This document shows, one piece after another, positions 6,389 through 22,859 of a stretch of 22,991 nucleotides of DNA (within the stretch, counting starts at the first letter, position 1; each line of letters opens with the position of its first letter). The position numbers and the translations under genes were made by a program. This DNA is from a virus. The stretch lies in the IMG/VR virus record IMGVR_UViG_3300020204_000392, positions 1-22,991 of that record. One strand, 5' to 3'. The notes under the pieces were generated by a model, which did not search any database, was not told the DNA's origin, and worked only from the letters and a program-made list of their open reading frames with translations.

Positions 6389-6763
6389 ATGCCTCAACCC
6401 ACATTGTTCTCAGGGGCTACAGCGGCCAGTGGCATTTTTGAATATGGCACTGCCGTTAAGCGAAGTGTTCGCGTTCGGCGCGTGGTATTTGGCAATGGCT
6501 ACGAGCAAGTGGCCCCTGATGGCATCAATTCTGATATTCGCTCATACGATTTACGCACTCGCCCTATTTCCAACACGCTGGCGCAACAAATTGATGATGC
6601 TTTTTCTAGCTTGAAGGGCGATTTTTTCTATGCGCAGTTCCCTCAAGACACTGCAGTGTACAAATATCGCCTTGAGCCCAATGATTGGACGTGGGAAGTG
6701 ATTGGGCCAAATGGGAATGTAATATCGTTCACGGTGAGGCGAGTGTACGATTTTCGCTCTTGA
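6389..6763 (+). CDS. Minor tail protein, lambda M family
   Basis: This is a 124-residue tail tip protein of the lambda M (Phage_min_tail) family. In lambda, M joins the tip complex around the tape measure terminus before tube polymerisation. Diagnostic is the block VRRVVFGNGYEQVAPDGINS near residues 29-48, which matches the family pattern of a basic strand, F-G-x-G-Y and a D-G-I-N turn. It is followed by a helix (residues about 62-75) and a C-terminal TVRRVYDF strand. Length is close to that of lambda M. The start lies 2 bases after the tape measure stop with no clear Shine-Dalgarno, suggesting coupled translation. The next gene follows after 6 bases, with a GAGG at 6762-6765. Confidence 0.9.
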   Translation: MPQPTLFSGATAASGIFEYGTAVKRSVRVRRVVFGNGYEQVAPDGINSDIRSYDLRTRPISNTLAQQIDDAFSSLKGDFFYAQFPQDTAVYKYRLEPNDWTWEVIGPNGNVISFTVRRVYDFRS

Positions 6764-6769
6764 GGCATT

Positions 6770-8224
6770 ATGGCGATTAAAGATGATGTGCTACTTAGCT
6801 GGCACGATTCCATTGTTGAGCTATTTGAACTAGATCTCACGCCAATTACAACTGGAGTGGGCGCTAACAAGTTTTATTTCACGAATCAAACTGATTCATC
6901 TGGCAATAAATTGCGTTGGAAAGCCACGGGGTCTGGCGCAACGCTTGTCACTTATGAACCGTTGCCAATTGTTGCAGAAGGTTTTGATCGAGGCACGAAA
7001 GGGCAAATTCCGCGCCCCACAATGACCGTTGCAAATATCTTCAATACATTCACGGAAGCACTGGGCGAGCTCGATGATTTAGTGGGCGCCAAAGTTGTGC
7101 GCCGTCGAACGCTGGCTAAATATTTAGGCGGCATGCCAACGGCAGATCTCAATTCAGAATTTCCCACTGATATTTTCTTTATTGAGCGGAAAATTGCAGA
7201 GAACAATCAACTGGTGTCGTTTGAGCTTTCTAGTGCATTAGATCTGGAGGGGCTGGAGCTGCCCAAGCGTATCATCACTCAGAACTATTGCATTTGGGAC
7301 TATCGAGGGGCTGAATGTGGCTATGCAGGTCCTCCGGTAGCGGGAGTGGATGATGGACCGCCAGTACCATCTGGCACCACGTCTTCGCACCCAGCAGTTG
7401 TTGCTTATGTAACAGCAAGTGCTGCACTAGGCAATAGCAGGCGTGATCTATCTAGAGCTCAAGCTGCATACAACATTGCATTGAATCGTCGAACAGTTGA
7501 TTGTTCAACAACTGGTGGCGGCGATAGCCAATTTAACCTCGGAAGCGCGACAGCGCCGGGATTTGTTCCTATTGAGTGGAGCTTTGCATTGTGCAGTGGC
7601 AGTTCCACCAATCCGCTCATGATTATGTGGCGTGGTGCATTTAAGACGGCCGCTGACACAAATTATGTTGCAAGCACTACGCGGTTTTCGTCAACATTAA
7701 ATAAGCCCATGTATGAAGTGAGGAAGCAATTGTCTGCCACTGTTAGTGGTACTCGCGTTATTGACCCGCTGGTGTGGGACGTGAGCAGTCGTTCTCGCGC
7801 CACATTTGCCTTTCAAGATGACAATGGCAACTGGCTGGCCGTATGGAGTGGACAGTACATTGCGAGTCTTCCAGATGCTTTTTCTGGACTTGGCGTGTCT
7901 TATAGCCGTGGAGGACAGCGTCTAACGGCGGCGACCAGCATTGGACCACTTCAATATGCAAAAGAACTAGATCCAGCCATTGCCTGCTCCACTGCAACAG
8001 CGGCTCTTGCAGTGGCTTCCGGCAGTCTTGTCACTGCCAGCGGCGCCTATGTGGCAGCCCAGGCGGCATTTGTTGCAGCTAGTGGAGCCTTAATTTCATC
8101 GGGCCTTTCTGCTGTGATTAGTGGTGCCGACATCTGCGGCAAGCGTGTTAGCAGTTGTCGCCTGCGCTTTCCAACATCGGCTCTACCATTTGGAGGCTTC
8201 CCAGGGGCCAATACACCACGATGA
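6770..8224 (+). CDS. Minor tail protein, lambda L family, with large inserted domain
   Basis: This 484-residue tail tip protein is twice the length of lambda L (about 232 residues). Residues 1-200 and 450-484 together look like a normal L protein. Members of this family bind an iron-sulfur cluster through four cysteines. Here these are C174 and C183 (CIWDYRGAEC) and C456 and C463 (CGKRVSSC), with spacings of 9 and 7 that match what I recall for lambda. About 270 residues separate the two pairs, against roughly 22 in lambda. The insert consists of an Ala-rich helix (about 208-242), a beta-rich globular part (about 246-400, with C245, C275 and C406), and a second Ala/Ser-rich helix (about 409-446). 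This suggests a domain carried on a helical hairpin. The TGA stop overlaps the next ATG (ATGA at 8221-8224). Confidence 0.9.
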   Translation: MAIKDDVLLSWHDSIVELFELDLTPITTGVGANKFYFTNQTDSSGNKLRWKATGSGATLVTYEPLPIVAEGFDRGTKGQIPRPTMTVANIFNTFTEALGELDDLVGAKVVRRRTLAKYLGGMPTADLNSEFPTDIFFIERKIAENNQLVSFELSSALDLEGLELPKRIITQNYCIWDYRGAECGYAGPPVAGVDDGPPVPSGTTSSHPAVVAYVTASAALGNSRRDLSRAQAAYNIALNRRTVDCSTTGGGDSQFNLGSATAPGFVPIEWSFALCSGSSTNPLMIMWRGAFKTAADTNYVASTTRFSSTLNKPMYEVRKQLSATVSGTRVIDPLVWDVSSRSRATFAFQDDNGNWLAVWSGQYIASLPDAFSGLGVSYSRGGQRLTAATSIGPLQYAKELDPAIACSTATAALAVASGSLVTASGAYVAAQAAFVAASGALISSGLSAVISGADICGKRVSSCRLRFPTSALPFGGFPGANTPR

Positions 8225-8925
8225 TTAGCACTGAAAACAAAAGGCAAATTGTGGCACTTAGTCACTTGGCATTGCCTAATGAAGCCTGCGGCTTTGTTGT
8301 CGATGATGAAGTGGTGCAATGTGAAAACATTCACGAATCTCCGACTACTAATTTTCGCATTGCTGCGGAAGACTACATTGCTGCCGAGGAGAAAGGAACA
8401 ATTAAGGCTGTATTTCATTCGCATGGCCCAGACCATCAGCCTCGTTTCTCGTCGCATGACGTAAGAGCTTGCAAACAAAGCGCCATTCCCTGGGTGCTGT
8501 ATCACACAAAGACTGGCAGTTTTGTCTGGGCGGACCCCAGCGGCAACATGCCCTATCTGGAAAGGCAATGGGTGTATGGAATTAATGATTGTTATGGGCT
8601 GGTGCGTGATTTTTACCGACGTGAATTTGACATTGTTTTAGATGATTTTGAGCGTGGCGATGAATATGAATGGGAGAGCCGTGACTGGCAGATGTTCGGC
8701 AAGAACTATTTAGATCAAGGCTTTTCGCCCATCGAAAAGCCCACACAGAAAGGGGACATATTATTGATGCAAATTGGGGCACCATTTCCCAATCATGTGG
8801 GCGTCATGTCTGGTGATGGCATGTTGTTTTATCATCATTTAATGGATCGCCTTTCTGAAGCTTCAGTGTGGGGCGGATTTTGGGCAAGCTCCTGTTGTCA
8901 AGTATTGAGGCATCATCTTCTATGA
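8221..8925 (+). CDS. Tail tip peptidase, lambda K family (JAMM + NlpC/P60)
   Basis: This 234-residue two-domain protein matches lambda K. The N-terminal Mov34/JAMM (MPN) domain has NEACGFVV (likely catalytic Glu near residue 21) and the metal motif H66-S-H68 with S77 and D80. The C-terminal NlpC/P60 cysteine peptidase domain has C124 in NDCYGLVRDFY and H192 in NHVGVM. The second domain is expected to cut peptidoglycan stem peptides during entry; the first may process a tail protein, but its target is not known here. ATG 8221 is preferred over an upstream TTG (8155) in the same frame, because it gives the ATGA overlap with L and starts just before the conserved domain. The spacing between the second His and the Ser is 8 residues, one more than the standard JAMM pattern. 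The next gene again overlaps by ATGA (8922-8925). Confidence 0.92.
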   Translation: MISTENKRQIVALSHLALPNEACGFVVDDEVVQCENIHESPTTNFRIAAEDYIAAEEKGTIKAVFHSHGPDHQPRFSSHDVRACKQSAIPWVLYHTKTGSFVWADPSGNMPYLERQWVYGINDCYGLVRDFYRREFDIVLDDFERGDEYEWESRDWQMFGKNYLDQGFSPIEKPTQKGDILLMQIGAPFPNHVGVMSGDGMLFYHHLMDRLSEASVWGGFWASSCCQVLRHHLL

Positions 8926-9548
8926 CTAGCAGCGAGCAATGGGTGGATGTGAAATTGATCGGAGAACTGGGCCGTCGTTTTGGTCGCAGTCATCGCTTTT
9001 TTGTTCGCCATCCACGAGACATCATTTCTGCATTGTCTAGACAGATTGAAGGATTCAAGGACTATCTGTCTACTGCCCACGAGAATGGCGTGGCGTTTCG
9101 TCTCATCACTGATGATCCCAAAGGCATTGGCTATGAGCATCTTGAGCTTTCCTGCAAGCGCCTAGTCATTGCCCCAGTGATTGCTGGTGCTGGTGGCCAA
9201 GGGTTTTCTATTGGACAGATTTTGCTTGGCGTGGCTCTTGTCGCATTGGCCTTCATTCCTGGCGTTGGCATTGCCGCCTCTGGGGCATTAGCTGGCAAGA
9301 TGACAGCATTGGGCACCGTGCTGTTCTCCTTGGGTACAGGCTTGGTTCTTACGGGCATTTCCGGCTTGTTATCTCCTCAGGTGCAAACGCCAACAAGCGA
9401 CACATCCAAGAAGGAAAGTTTCATTTTTGATCGCTCCGTGGAGCTCACCACACAGGGCTATCCCATTCCATTGGTGTACGGCCAATATCTGGTGACATCT
9501 CCTTTGTACGTGTCATCTGCCATCAGTACGGAGGCGATCAGTGTCTGA
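8922..9548 (+). CDS. Tail assembly protein, lambda I family
   Basis: This 208-residue protein fits the lambda I family in size and position, between K and J. Residues about 1-85 form the N-terminal ubiquitin-like part with ELGRRFGRSHRFFV. Residues about 90-150 are strongly hydrophobic and glycine-rich (two stretches, GVALVALAFIPGVGIAASGA and TVLFSLGTGLVLTGISGLLS), as is usual for this family. The C-terminus has the recurrent GYPIPLVYG motif. In lambda I is required for tail tip assembly but is not found in the finished particle. ATG 8922 is chosen because it overlaps the K stop as ATGA; a start at 8868 (in-frame ATG) would lie inside the conserved end of K. The end overlaps the GTG start of the next gene by 8 bases. 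Confidence 0.88.
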   Translation: MTSSEQWVDVKLIGELGRRFGRSHRFFVRHPRDIISALSRQIEGFKDYLSTAHENGVAFRLITDDPKGIGYEHLELSCKRLVIAPVIAGAGGQGFSIGQILLGVALVALAFIPGVGIAASGALAGKMTALGTVLFSLGTGLVLTGISGLLSPQVQTPTSDTSKKESFIFDRSVELTTQGYPIPLVYGQYLVTSPLYVSSAISTEAISV

Positions 9549-11577
9549 TTCAGTATTTCTTGACGATGCTGAAGACAAGCGCAAGCTTGTCGCGCCATTA
9601 ATTATTGAAGGCGCCAAGAAGGGAGGCGGTGGAGATTCCCCAGAAGAAGACCCCGACACACTGCGAAGCCGTGCTACGGCCAAGATCCTGGGAGCTTTAT
9701 GCGAAGGGCCAGTAGAAGGCTTTGCCGTGAGCTCGGGGCAAAGTGTATTTCTTAATGACACGCCATTGCAAAGTCTTGATGGTTCTTCAAACTTTGGAAC
9801 AGGCTTAAATGTCAATTTTAGACGTGGTACGCAAGATCAATCGTCCATTCCTGGGTTTGATGATGTACGAGTGGAGCAATCTGTTGGCGTAAAAGTGACA
9901 AAGCAAGGTGGTGCTACCAGTGTCACCACTGCGAGCAATTTATTCTCTCAAATTATTGTGCGAATTGGCGTAGCATCGCTTTTTCGCGTGGAAGATGATG
10001 GTGACATTAAGGGAACAAGTGTTGAATTTGTCATCAGAATTATTGACAACAATGGTACAACTATTGTCAATCAAACGCAAACTATTAGCGGCAAAGCTCG
10101 CGGTCCTGTTGATTTTGAATATCCCTTTAACGCTTCTGGCCAGGGTCCATGGGTGGTGCGAGTAACGCGAAACACTGACGATCCCCGTGATCTGAAATAC
10201 AACAATGATTTGTATTTTAAGGCGGTGATTGGCGTGCTAGCCGAGTCGTTTCGCTATCCCAACACTGCGCTAGTTGGTCTAACAGTTAGCGCCGAAGCCT
10301 TTGATTCCATTCCCGAATTGTCCGTGGAGATGAAGGGACTCCAGATTAGAGTGCCAAGCAATTACAACCCTGCATCGCGCACATATTCGGGAATTTGGGA
10401 TGGCACCTTTAGCGGGCGCCAGTATTCCAATAATCCCGTCTGGGTGTTTTATGACTTGCTGACTAACCGTAGATATGGTTGTGGTAATTTTGTTGAGCAA
10501 GACAACATTGACAAATTTGCTCTGTATGAAATTAGCAGATATTGTGATGAGCTTGTAAGCAATGGTCGGGGCGGTACAGAGCCACGCTTCACTTTTAATG
10601 GCGTCATCAATAACAGGGCTGAAGCCTATGAAGTGTTGAATGGCCTGGCATCATGCTTCCAGGGCATGATTTATTTTGCAAACGGCACAATTGTCGCCAC
10701 TCAAGACAAACCTGGCCGAGCCGTTAAGCTCTTCAACTCTTCCAATGTCATCCAGGAGGTGGAGGAATCTGGACAGGTAACTGGTCCCCCTTTCACTTAT
10801 GAAGGAACTGGTCGCAAAGCCAGGAAGACCGTAGCGCTTGTTTCCTGGAACGATCCTAGTGATCGTTACAGAGGAAAAATTGAATATGTGGAAGATCGAG
10901 GGGCTATTCAACAATATGGTTACCGCGAGATTTCAGTGAGAGGCTTTGGCTGCACATCCCAAGCACAAGCGCAACGCATTGGCCGCTGGACTTTGCTTAC
11001 CAACCTCACGGAAAAGGAGACTGTCACGTTCAAGGTGAGCGCTCAAGGCTTCTTCTTAATGCCCGGTGATCTTGTTGACATTGCTGACAGTGATCGCAGC
11101 GGCGGCATTGCCGCCGGCATTTGCCCCACGGGCTCCACGACTACAAGGGTGGAGCTCGACCGGCAAGTGGTGTTGTCCGGTGGTACTAGCTACACGCTGC
11201 AGCTCATTGCTGCAAATGCAATGACGGTATATAGCGGCACCACGGCTTCTGGGGTGGCCCCAGCAAGCGAAGATCGGGCAGTTGCCACTACTGCTGGCAC
11301 TCATACAGCTTTGACAGTTTCTAGTGCCTTTACTTCGGTGCCCACTATCGGCACGGCATGGTTCTTGCGTGCCAACACTGTCACCAAGAAGCGCTATCGC
11401 GTTATTTCATTGGCAGAGGACGACGGCATTGTCACCATCATTGCCGCAAGTCACAATGAAGATAAGTATTCCATTGTGGACAACAGCACTGCACTGGACA
11501 CGATTCGACGCTCCGTGGCTAGCCTTACGGTTACGCCAAGGGTGAGTGCTGGCGGCATCGTCTTGGATGTGAGCTAA
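9541..11577 (+). CDS. Tail tip / host specificity protein, lambda J family (short form)
   Basis: This 678-residue protein closely follows the N-terminal two thirds of lambda J, the central tip protein that closes the tube and carries the receptor-binding end. Recognisable blocks in order are DTLRSRATAKILGALCEGPV (near residue 40), VNFRRGTQDQ (about 97), SFRYPNTALVGL (about 238), NYNPASRTYSGIWDGTF (about 275), a YGCGNF block (about 316), GTEPRFTFNG (about 344) and a KIEYVEDRGAI segment (about 447). It stops at about the place where lambda J (1132 residues) continues with fibronectin-like repeats and the receptor tip, so that function must sit in other proteins, probably those encoded just downstream. 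The start is GTG at 9541. The stop and the next ATG share one base (TAATG, 11575-11579). Confidence 0.92.
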   Translation: MSDSVFLDDAEDKRKLVAPLIIEGAKKGGGGDSPEEDPDTLRSRATAKILGALCEGPVEGFAVSSGQSVFLNDTPLQSLDGSSNFGTGLNVNFRRGTQDQSSIPGFDDVRVEQSVGVKVTKQGGATSVTTASNLFSQIIVRIGVASLFRVEDDGDIKGTSVEFVIRIIDNNGTTIVNQTQTISGKARGPVDFEYPFNASGQGPWVVRVTRNTDDPRDLKYNNDLYFKAVIGVLAESFRYPNTALVGLTVSAEAFDSIPELSVEMKGLQIRVPSNYNPASRTYSGIWDGTFSGRQYSNNPVWVFYDLLTNRRYGCGNFVEQDNIDKFALYEISRYCDELVSNGRGGTEPRFTFNGVINNRAEAYEVLNGLASCFQGMIYFANGTIVATQDKPGRAVKLFNSSNVIQEVEESGQVTGPPFTYEGTGRKARKTVALVSWNDPSDRYRGKIEYVEDRGAIQQYGYREISVRGFGCTSQAQAQRIGRWTLLTNLTEKETVTFKVSAQGFFLMPGDLVDIADSDRSGGIAAGICPTGSTTTRVELDRQVVLSGGTSYTLQLIAANAMTVYSGTTASGVAPASEDRAVATTAGTHTALTVSSAFTSVPTIGTAWFLRANTVTKKRYRVISLAEDDGIVTIIAASHNEDKYSIVDNSTALDTIRRSVASLTVTPRVSAGGIVLDVS

Positions 11578-12376: not shown

Positions 12377-13195
12377 ATGACACGAATTATTGGCTCGTTA
12401 GACGGGCCGAATGGCCCGCTTGGCGGACGCCTGTACGTGAAACCATCCACTCCTTTTATTGGAGCGTCTGTCGATGGCATGTCGTTTCAAATCGAAAACG
12501 GCATGGTGGACATTGAACTGCCTGCCAATGTAGGGGGTACTGTTTGGCTGGCTGATTGGAAGGATCAATTTGATTGGTCTCCGGTTACTTACGTGGAGCA
12601 ATGGCGAGTGCCGAAGACTGATACTGTTTCGCTGGATGAAGTAAGGAACTTTGGCGCAGGCAATCGCCAAGTGCGGGCCAATAAAACCGACATGCTTGAT
12701 CTTGCTGTATGGAAGCAAGAAGCGCAAGCTGCAAAAGACAAGCTTGCCAACATTGAGCACGAAAAAGCCCGGCTTTTGCTGAAAGTAAGCAGCGCCGAAG
12801 GAAAGGCCGCTGCAGCGGCCGGACAAGTGGCATCGCTTAACTCGGAAATTGTACGGTTAAAGCAAAAACTGGTTGAAGCCGCTAGTCCCGTAGTAAAAAC
12901 AGAAGAGCGCGTAATTGAACGCCAGGTTCTTCCTGAAGAAGCAAAGCAAAAACTTGCATTGGCCGTGCAAAAAGCCACGTTGTTGCAGCAGGAAGTAGAC
13001 AGGCTTCAGATAGAACTCACTGAAAGGCTTTCGCTTGTCACGCATTTCACATCGCTTCACGAGGAGATTGATAGACTGACAAGAGAAAATCAAGAGCTTC
13101 AACTTCGCATCAATGAATTGAAGCAGCCCGTGCGCAATACATCTGCATTGCGCCGTGAGGCCATTGAAAATCTCGACCGACTTTTTGACGGTTAA
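12377..13195 (+). CDS. Beta-domain plus long coiled-coil stalk protein
   Basis: This 272-residue protein has two parts. Residues about 1-95 look like a small beta-sandwich of the transthyretin/FN3 kind (GGRLYVKPSTPF, then an NGMVDIELP strand, then PVTYVEQWRVP). Residues about 105-270 are almost all helical with heptad-like spacing (KDKLANIEHEKARLLLKV, SLNSEIVRLKQKL, LQQEVDRLQIEL, LHEEIDRLTRENQELQL), interrupted around residues 168-188 by SPVV...RQVLPEE. This suggests a trimeric or dimeric stalk with a hinge. It may connect the tip to a fibre or act as an assembly scaffold; nothing in the sequence decides. The start has GAGGTG 5 bases upstream, one of the better ribosome binding sites here. 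The stop shares one base with the next ATG (TAATG). Confidence 0.75.
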   Translation: MTRIIGSLDGPNGPLGGRLYVKPSTPFIGASVDGMSFQIENGMVDIELPANVGGTVWLADWKDQFDWSPVTYVEQWRVPKTDTVSLDEVRNFGAGNRQVRANKTDMLDLAVWKQEAQAAKDKLANIEHEKARLLLKVSSAEGKAAAAAGQVASLNSEIVRLKQKLVEAASPVVKTEERVIERQVLPEEAKQKLALAVQKATLLQQEVDRLQIELTERLSLVTHFTSLHEEIDRLTRENQELQLRINELKQPVRNTSALRREAIENLDRLFDG

Positions 13196-20450: not shown

Positions 20451-22859
20451 ATGAGCATTCCCGGCGCCGCCCATCCCATGCTGCTTGCCGCAGTTGCAGA
20501 GCAGGCTGCATATAGCATTCCACGTTCGCTCCGTTTCAATAGTAGTGACAGTGCCTACTTGTCCCGCACCCCGGCATCGGCGGGCAACAGGAAGACGTGG
20601 ACGTGGAGCGGGTGGGTGAAAATCGCCTCATTCACTAGGACTCATTTCTTTTTTGGTGCGTCTAATACATTTGCTGCATTTAACGGTGGCGAATCAATTT
20701 CAGACTGCGAAATTTACTTTAACCTCAGAGGCGGAGGCACAAACTACTTTTCATCATTTGCGCCAAAACTGCGAGACCCATCTGCTTGGTATCATTTTGT
20801 CTTTGCTATAGATACAACTCAGTCGACCGCAAGCAACAGGCTCAAGGTTTACATAAATGGGGTGCAGATAACTGCCGCTGGAAGCACCGGTCAATCATTT
20901 CCGCCTCAAAACGATGATCTTGCTGTTAATGACACAATCTCGCATTTAATTTGCGGACAGTATTATTTCGACGGCTACCTAGCCGATATCTGGTTCCTGG
21001 ATGGGTTGACACCTACCACGGCGGTGGTGAATGGCGTCACTCGGTTAACGCAACTGGGCGAGTTTGACACCAACGGAATCTGGCAGCCAAAGGCGTGGGA
21101 TGGCGCAGCACTGACGGGCAACTCCTTCCACCTTGACTTTGCCGACAACAGTGCAGCAACTGCCGCCACACTAGGGAAGGACACTTCGGGGCTGGGGAAC
21201 AACTGGACGCCGAACAACCTTTCGGTCACGGCAGGTGCAGGAAACGACAGCTTGGTAGACTCCCCCTCTAGTCCGGCGGGTCAAACAGATTCCGGCGCGG
21301 GTGGAACTGTGGTGGGGAATTATTGCACATTGAATCCGCTGAACACTGGAGCAACATCACTTGCCAACGGAAACCTTGAAGTTACAACACCTTCCACTGG
21401 CTACGGCTTAACTTATTCAACAATCGCCGTATCTTCCGGAAAATGGTACTGGGAGGTATTTGCCTCAGCAATAACAGGTAATGCTGAAATCGGAATCTCA
21501 AAAGCAGGAGCAACGCTCACGAATGCTGTCGGCATGTATGTAGGTGGTTATTCGTATGTAAGCGGTCAATTCAAAGGCAACAATAATTCCTATACCTCAT
21601 ACGGTGCCTCGTACACAACTAATGACATTATTGGCGTTGCTTTAGACCTTGATGCTGGAACGCTTGTTTTCTATAAGAATGGCGTTTCACAAGGGACTGC
21701 ATTTAGCTCGTTAAGCGGAGAGTTTTTCCCTGCTGTTTCTGACTCCAGCAATAGCGGTGGAAGTACGCTCGTTGCCAACTTCGGCGCTCGGGCGTTTAGT
21801 TATACAGCACCATCGGGCTTCAAAGCCTTATGCACCGCCAACCTGCCGACGCCGACGATTGCCAAAGGTTCGGACTACTTTGACGCAGTGCTATACACAG
21901 GCAATGGCTCAACGCAGACGATTAGTGGGCTGAACTTCTCGCCTGATTGGGTGTGGATTAAAGGGCGCTCTTTAACTTCTAACAATCGACTTTATGACCA
22001 GATTCGCGGTGCTACCAAATCCATTTATAGCGATCTGACAGATGCAGAGGGAACTGAGTCCACGGGTCTAACTGCTTTTACCTCTGATGGATTTAGCTTG
22101 GGCAGCCAAGCGGGTCACAACCAAAATACCTCAACCTACGTCGCCTGGTGCTGGGACGGCGGTTCTTCTACCGTATCCAACACACAAGGCAGCATCACTT
22201 CTCAGGTGAGGGCTAATGCTAGTGCGGGGTTCTCCGTTGTTACTTGGAGTTCAACAACAACTGTGTCCCATACATTTGGGCACGGATTGGGTGTTGCTCC
22301 CGCCTTTGTAATAGTCAAACGTCGCAGCAGTTCAGGTGTTTGGCGCATCGGACATACCAGCCTTGGTTGGACTAGGGCACTTCAATTTGATACTGGCGCA
22401 CAATTAGCTGCTGATGGTGCTTATTGGAATAACACTGCCCCAACAAGCACGGTTGTGTATATTGGCGATACGGGGCAACTTGGAGCTGATAATGTCGCCT
22501 ACTGCTTTGCCCCAGTAGACGGGTACTCTTCTTTTGGCAGCTACACCGGCAACGGCAGCGCAGATGGGCCGTTTGTTTATACCGGGTTTAGGCCAAGGTG
22601 GATCGTGCTCAAGAGAGCCGTTGGACCGATTGCCGACTGGGTAATTCATGACACTGCTCGCTCTGATTACAACGTATCAACTAAGCGCCTATACGCTAAT
22701 AGTTCCGACGCAGAAGTTAGCGACTCGACAATGCAGATTGATTGCTTGAGTAATGGATTTAAAATTCGTAATACAGGTGGAAACGTGAATGGATCTGGTG
22801 ACACCTATATCTACGCCGCCTTCGCTGAATCTCCCTTTGCCTATGCCCGCGCTAGGTGA
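20451..22859 (+). CDS. Large adhesin: LamG + SPRY + three C-terminal repeats
   Basis: This 802-residue protein is the probable receptor-binding adhesin and the last gene before the terminator. Residues about 26-190 form a LamG/concanavalin-like domain (SLRFNSSDSAYLSR, WTWSGWVK, LKVYINGVQI, GYLADIWFLDG). Residues about 318-460 form a SPRY domain (SSGKWYWEVF, IGVALDLDAGTLVFYKNGVS). Residues about 479-802 hold three diverged tandem repeats built around a YTGNGS or GHG start, an F-x-P-x-W/F-V-x-I/V-K strand, an aromatic W-x-I-x-D/H strand and a Y-x-A-x-C/F end. No protease or depolymerase site was seen, so it looks like a binder and not an enzyme. The 27 bases upstream contain only AAAAGAAA as a poor ribosome binding site, and in-frame ATGs occur at 20451 and 20478. 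Confidence 0.85.
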   Translation: MSIPGAAHPMLLAAVAEQAAYSIPRSLRFNSSDSAYLSRTPASAGNRKTWTWSGWVKIASFTRTHFFFGASNTFAAFNGGESISDCEIYFNLRGGGTNYFSSFAPKLRDPSAWYHFVFAIDTTQSTASNRLKVYINGVQITAAGSTGQSFPPQNDDLAVNDTISHLICGQYYFDGYLADIWFLDGLTPTTAVVNGVTRLTQLGEFDTNGIWQPKAWDGAALTGNSFHLDFADNSAATAATLGKDTSGLGNNWTPNNLSVTAGAGNDSLVDSPSSPAGQTDSGAGGTVVGNYCTLNPLNTGATSLANGNLEVTTPSTGYGLTYSTIAVSSGKWYWEVFASAITGNAEIGISKAGATLTNAVGMYVGGYSYVSGQFKGNNNSYTSYGASYTTNDIIGVALDLDAGTLVFYKNGVSQGTAFSSLSGEFFPAVSDSSNSGGSTLVANFGARAFSYTAPSGFKALCTANLPTPTIAKGSDYFDAVLYTGNGSTQTISGLNFSPDWVWIKGRSLTSNNRLYDQIRGATKSIYSDLTDAEGTESTGLTAFTSDGFSLGSQAGHNQNTSTYVAWCWDGGSSTVSNTQGSITSQVRANASAGFSVVTWSSTTTVSHTFGHGLGVAPAFVIVKRRSSSGVWRIGHTSLGWTRALQFDTGAQLAADGAYWNNTAPTSTVVYIGDTGQLGADNVAYCFAPVDGYSSFGSYTGNGSADGPFVYTGFRPRWIVLKRAVGPIADWVIHDTARSDYNVSTKRLYANSSDAEVSDSTMQIDCLSNGFKIRNTGGNVNGSGDTYIYAAFAESPFAYARAR

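Follow-up and report, generated by a model that had tools for sequence, protein, structure and literature searches.

What occupies the 272 residues that separate the two cysteine pairs of the iron–sulfur (Fe-S) motif in the tail-tip protein of a phage? The DNA under study (the window) is the whole 22,991-base virus record IMGVR_UViG_3300020204_000392, in which the open frame 6770–8224 gives a protein of 484 residues. The protein matches PF05100 (Phage_tail_L; E = 3.7e-46, 157.5 bits against a curated cut-off of 25) and phrog_18, the family of the L-like protein (E = 6.9e-69). The Fe-S cysteines of lambda L are Cys173/182/205/212 (PMC10721106), with 22 residues between the pairs. The window protein keeps the lambda spacing within each pair (C174-x8-C183 and C456-x6-C463, from codon C174 through codon C463 at 7289–8158) and has 272 residues between them. 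Our answer, given with moderate confidence, is that the insert forms a helical stalk, clasped by a disulfide, with a hypervariable accessory adhesin head projecting from the tail tip. The basis for this is the insert itself, the predicted helices, the constant length of the stalk, the co-occurrence of two cysteines, a duplication within the head, and the hypervariability of the head.

The AlphaFold2 (AF2) model of the protein, built from 38 aligned sequences, has a mean predicted local distance difference test score (pLDDT) of 71.8. We write C2, Ca, Cb, and C3 for C183, C245, C406, and C456 and their equivalents. The parts of the protein are as follows.

6770–8224, plus strand: L-like tail-tip hub protein, 484 amino acids, with the stalked insert (PF05100, phrog_18, Foldseek match to 8iyk_L)
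6770–7267, plus strand: N-terminal hub domain (HDI), equivalent of lambda L residues 1–166 (phmmer match to 8iyk_L residues 20–196; AF2/Foldseek)
7268–7339, plus strand: first half of the Fe-S domain, with C174 (7289–7291) and C183 (7316–7318); C-x8-C in all complete aligned homologs
7391–7501, plus strand: ascending stalk helix, residues 208–244 (AF2 helix, pLDDT about 73–85)
7502–7504, plus strand: junction cysteine Ca (C245), in all complete insert-bearing proteins and absent from the class without insert
7505–7744, plus strand: head module 1, residues 246–325, including the lineage-specific C275 (profile match to module 2, with matching strand order)
7745–7984, plus strand: head module 2, residues 326–405 (profile match to module 1 and to the single module of small heads)
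7985–7987, plus strand: junction cysteine Cb (C406), in all complete insert-bearing proteins
7988–8098, plus strand: descending stalk helix, residues 407–443 (AF2 helix 402–443, pLDDT about 80–94, heptad-like pattern)
8129–8221, plus strand: second half of the Fe-S domain, with C456 (8135–8137) and C463 (8156–8158); C-x6-C

The initial annotation, made from the letters alone, had assigned the protein to the L family, with about 270 residues between cysteine pairs of family spacing, and the assignment agrees with PF05100 and with the model, whose HDI fold finds lambda L (8iyk_L) in Foldseek with E = 2.7e-10. The second match is T1 gp36 (9l9p_J, E = 7.4e-7), followed by weaker ones to JBD30, RcGTA, and R4C. 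The motif CGKRxxSCRLRF in the second half of the Fe-S domain is conserved in L proteins with and without insert. The helices proposed at about 208–242 and 409–446 are predicted at 208–244 and 402–443, and the body between them (246–405) is predicted to be all-beta, both in the full-length model and in a model of the head only (pLDDT 72.8, predicted template modeling score 0.66). Two sets of strands follow each other in the head, 272–275, 282–287, 290–292, 299–309, and 314–323 in the first copy and 345–349, 355–359, 362–364, 377–385, and 393–400 in the second. In the descending helix, the hydrophobicity has a lag-7 autocorrelation of 0.55, and 45 of 2000 permutations match its power at a period of 3.5 residues. 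The three cysteines named in the body (C245, C275, and C406) are at the places given; C245 and C406, at the junctions between helices and body, have equivalents in every complete insert-bearing protein, and C275 is restricted to the five closest sequences.

The insert is not peculiar to one contig. The same protein occurs in two further assemblies (identical across the stretch that those contain), relatives at 48%–68% identity also have the open frame, and a wider search gives 80 loci, with the insert in IMG/VR contigs of many samples. The cultured Synechococcus phage S-CBS4 has the same architecture in gp036 (AEX56003.1). An assembly error or a chance fusion of two genes, which the initial annotation had named as the finding that would overturn it, is therefore refuted, since identical or homologous open frames are present in many assemblies and in S-CBS4; we found no support for it.

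Comparison of homologs, as the initial annotation had proposed, gives three classes of L proteins: without insert, with a small head, and with a large head. In the first, which includes Synechococcus phage S-H1, 21–22 residues lie between the cysteine pairs. The separation between Ca and Cb is 61–85 residues in small heads and 140–170 in large heads. Despite this almost threefold range of head length, the distance from C2 to Ca is 56–61 residues across 53 proteins, and that from Cb to C3 is exactly 46 residues in 49 of the 53 (counts that include near-copies and are thus not independent). The exceptions are the window and the three relatives closest to it, with 47–50 residues, the added ones being past the helix. 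In 16 complete proteins from loci found with the small-head profile (a few of them contigs already counted), the distances are 58 and 46 throughout. Among 76 further L proteins collected with no-insert queries, the gaps are 20–32 residues and none has a large insert; the stalked insert therefore looks confined to this clade among the L proteins sampled. A genome scan for insert-bearing prophages gave none of 20. A search of the sequence collection with the alignment of large heads was unsuccessful, the heads being too variable, and tblastn of the window head against phages gave no match, not even to S-CBS4. On a tree of the L core, the three classes need five changes, compared with 23 when the labels are shuffled; gain, loss, or exchange of inserts is thus occasional, not constant. 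In the prophage-like L of Thermomonas haemolytica (L127:5001–6971), a domain of ~400 amino acids is present elsewhere, inside the N-terminal hub domain.

The large head is, judging from profile comparisons, a diverged duplication of a module present once in the small head. Profiles of the two halves align with an hhalign score of 50.8, compared with a maximum of 15.4 in 100 column shuffles, at most 13.6 for core segments, and 14.5 for the reversed profile. The profile of the small head matches both halves (36.4 and 31.3, with shuffles against module 1 at 14.6 or less). The L protein would thus be a platform with interchangeable tips (none, one module, or two) on a stalk whose length does not change.

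The head is also where the sequences differ most. For relatives with a large head, the mean identity to the window drops from 61% over the core to 24% over the head. The boundaries are sharp: two relatives, L049 and L059, share 88%–98% of nucleotides in the L core and in most neighboring genes and only 48%–50% in codons 240–300, between Ca (234) and Cb (301–305), and the same drop limited to the head is present in L051 and L061. Between L049 and L059, the synonymous divergence (dS) is 2.0 in the head and 0.28 in the core, which fits either recombination that replaces the head or very rapid local change. The ratio of nonsynonymous to synonymous divergence (dN/dS) is otherwise mostly 0.1–0.3 in the head, and likewise in the stalk; because of these values, the head is considered, on codon evidence, to be under constraint and functional. 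Recent import was looked for in the base composition and discarded, with a GC content of 50.8% in the head (44.4% at third codon positions) and of 47.0% in the core (43.7%). In this group of aquatic phages, related to S-CBS4, the domain apparently carried on the stalk evolves far more rapidly than the remainder of the protein, which points to an exchangeable part that contacts the host cell.

Two other variable patches were observed. In the near-identical pair L064 and L075, codons 26–86 of the L hub are at 82%–84% identity and the remainder at 98%–100%, which suggests small recombination events in the L core too. Between L049 and L059, a second, sharply variable stretch (33%–59% identity) is located about 210–300 codons upstream of L and probably belongs to the C-terminal region of the tape measure protein.

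In lambda, L is trimeric and its Fe-S domain is located on the outer surface of the tip (PMC10721106). We take exposure and trimer from that work; because the domain is on the outside, an insert between its cysteine pairs should project outward, and an L trimer would have three heads projecting sideways from the tip. One long helix would lead outward and the other return, and this hairpin stalk of constant length would carry the two-module beta head. A disulfide between C245 and C406, which we infer, would probably form outside the reducing cell and clasp the head to the stalk. Binding, ligand, and host we infer as well: the head would most likely make a reversible first contact with a variable host surface molecule (probably a polysaccharide), and the tip would engage the final receptor afterwards. 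The initial annotation had proposed an extra, possibly surface-exposed, ligand-binding domain on a helical hairpin; the internal duplication, the classes with one or two modules, the hypervariability limited to the head, and the insertions already described at this point are additions to it.

A domain inserted in the Fe-S motif of the L family is already known from RcGTA, R4C, and JBD30. In the hubs of RcGTA (Rcc01696, g13) and of roseophage R4C (vBDshSR4C_014), a domain at the same point, termed oligosaccharide-binding (PMC7296036, PMC10276861), splits the Fe-S (ion-binding) domain; these inserts have only about 80–86 residues, and stalk helices are absent from their descriptions. The upper baseplate protein gp50 of JBD30 (Cys147/156/238/245; PMC11445458) has an insert of 81 residues at the same point, between Cys147/Cys156 and Cys238/Cys245, too short for a stalk and without junction cysteines. 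No sequence homology was detected between the window insert and the R4C and JBD30 inserts (hhalign probability ≤0.3%). Lambda L itself (gpL, PF05100, PDB 8iyk) shares with the window protein the N-terminal hub domain, the C-x8-C and C-x6-C motif, and the order M-L-K-I-J, and differs in having 22 residues where the window has the stalk and head. Closest is S-CBS4 gp036, with stalk, junction cysteines, large head, and gene order in common; it is only 41% identical overall, its head is highly diverged, and its record says only "phage tail protein", the insert being unremarked. Flagellins and FlgL, with a variable beta domain on a helical hairpin, are analogous in shape only (Foldseek E of 0.013 and above, insignificant). 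As far as the literature was searched, what is new is a helical stalk whose length is fixed, a pair of cysteines at the junctions, a head made of one or two modules, and hypervariability within sharp bounds.

Several observations weigh against a clasped stalk with an adhesin head. Phages without insert occur within the same clades, and the head is therefore dispensable for infection as such. That the RcGTA/R4C domain binds sugar was itself deduced from a resemblance of folds. The duplication can be seen with profiles only, since modules 1 and 2 of the window by itself align no better than shuffles, and the ascending helix has no significant heptad pattern in the permutation test. Structure prediction, the check put forward in the initial annotation, returns an L fold and a hairpin with a beta body; the Fe-S region, where clustered cysteines were to be looked for, has a pLDDT of about 30–57 (residues 158–184 and 457–484) and is too uncertain for the geometry of a [4Fe-4S] cluster. 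The fold search of the head alone, also put forward there, gives nothing significant in PDB (best E 0.34) or BFVD (0.28), and the window head has no Pfam match. Among all heads, only weak scattered matches to Pfam, PHROGs, PDB, and BFVD occur. A match of 2 of the 29 heads to UnbV_ASPIC (E 0.003) is disbelieved, and matches of some heads to phrog_18 are discounted, that family being L itself. The absent fold match may mean a new fold or merely a mediocre model.

The lack of a fold assignment for the head in Foldseek searches would also suit a structural decoration: packed on the outer face of the tip or against neighboring tail-tip proteins, the insert would stiffen or space the tip and bind no ligand. 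We consider this unlikely, if still the most serious of the alternatives: a packing surface should co-vary with its partners, yet the neighbors are mostly 88%–98% identical where the head differs sharply, and a stalk of unchanging length that bears either one module or two is more in keeping with a free end. Less probable again is a role of the head as the principal receptor-binding protein, in place of the lambda J fiber that is missing in the group. The head is hypervariable, and J has about 660–750 amino acids without a long fiber in every relative examined; J is just as short in insert-free relatives, and those phages therefore bind by something else. A head that compensates for a short J is rejected on the same ground. 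Because J stops past the hub region without a long fiber in all the relatives examined, with or without the insert, a gene other than J must encode the protein that binds the final receptor, and a SPRY/DUF7483 protein of the window and other large late genes may be fibers. That the insert is a neutral mobile passenger at a permissive exposed site is very improbable. The several gains and losses on the L tree (five changes for three classes) and the acceptance of domains at other points, as in the Thermomonas L, are as expected of a passenger; the low dN/dS in head and stalk, the fixed stalk length, and the invariance of the cysteines across deep divergence are not.

An accessory adhesin head on a stalk is thus the reading we retain, with a hypervariable, probably surface-exposed head placed exactly inside the Fe-S cluster motif. 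To our knowledge, what first binds picocyanobacteria in cyanosiphoviruses is largely unknown. Since S-CBS4 is a cultured member of the group, removal of the head and binding assays with purified heads are possible. A bolder version is a long shot, in which the head sets the host range and is exchanged rapidly within a large group of uncultured cyanosiphoviruses, its beta module is a fold absent from structure libraries, and the stalk couples host contact mechanically to the Fe-S domain at its base. If it were true, the role of the Fe-S cluster, unexplained in L (PMC10721106), would be in sensing or triggering.

The neighborhood of the gene is that of a tail-tip module.

6389–6763, plus strand: M-like distal tail protein, upstream neighbor (PF05939, E = 2.3e-12)
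8155–8925, plus strand: K-like protein, JAB and NlpC/P60, downstream neighbor (PF14464, PF00877, phrog_30)
8868–9548, plus strand: I-like protein (phrog_32, E = 6.5e-45)
9541–11577, plus strand: J-like protein, 678 amino acids, without the long C-terminal fiber (PF24801, PF13550, phrog_31 residues 257–862 of 1565)

The lambda gene order (tape measure, M-like, L, K, I, J) is kept. The nearest cultured phage is S-CBS4, whose gp034–gp044 parallel the window in order and size, with 54.5% identity between the J-like proteins. By homology and gene order, 6770–8224 encodes the L-type hub of a siphophage that resembles S-CBS4. At 8221–8224, ATGA joins the stop of L to a candidate start of K, likewise in the relatives L004 and L005; K probably starts at this ATG rather than at the listed TTG (8155). 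Further downstream, 12377–13195 encodes a late protein of 272 amino acids at the position of S-CBS4 gp042; its C-terminal half weakly matches coiled coils only and is a probable coiled coil. At 20451–22859, a protein of 802 amino acids with SPRY (E = 8.9e-18) and DUF7483 (E = 7.5e-118), found in some relatives only (three of the eight records searched), is a candidate fiber or adhesin.
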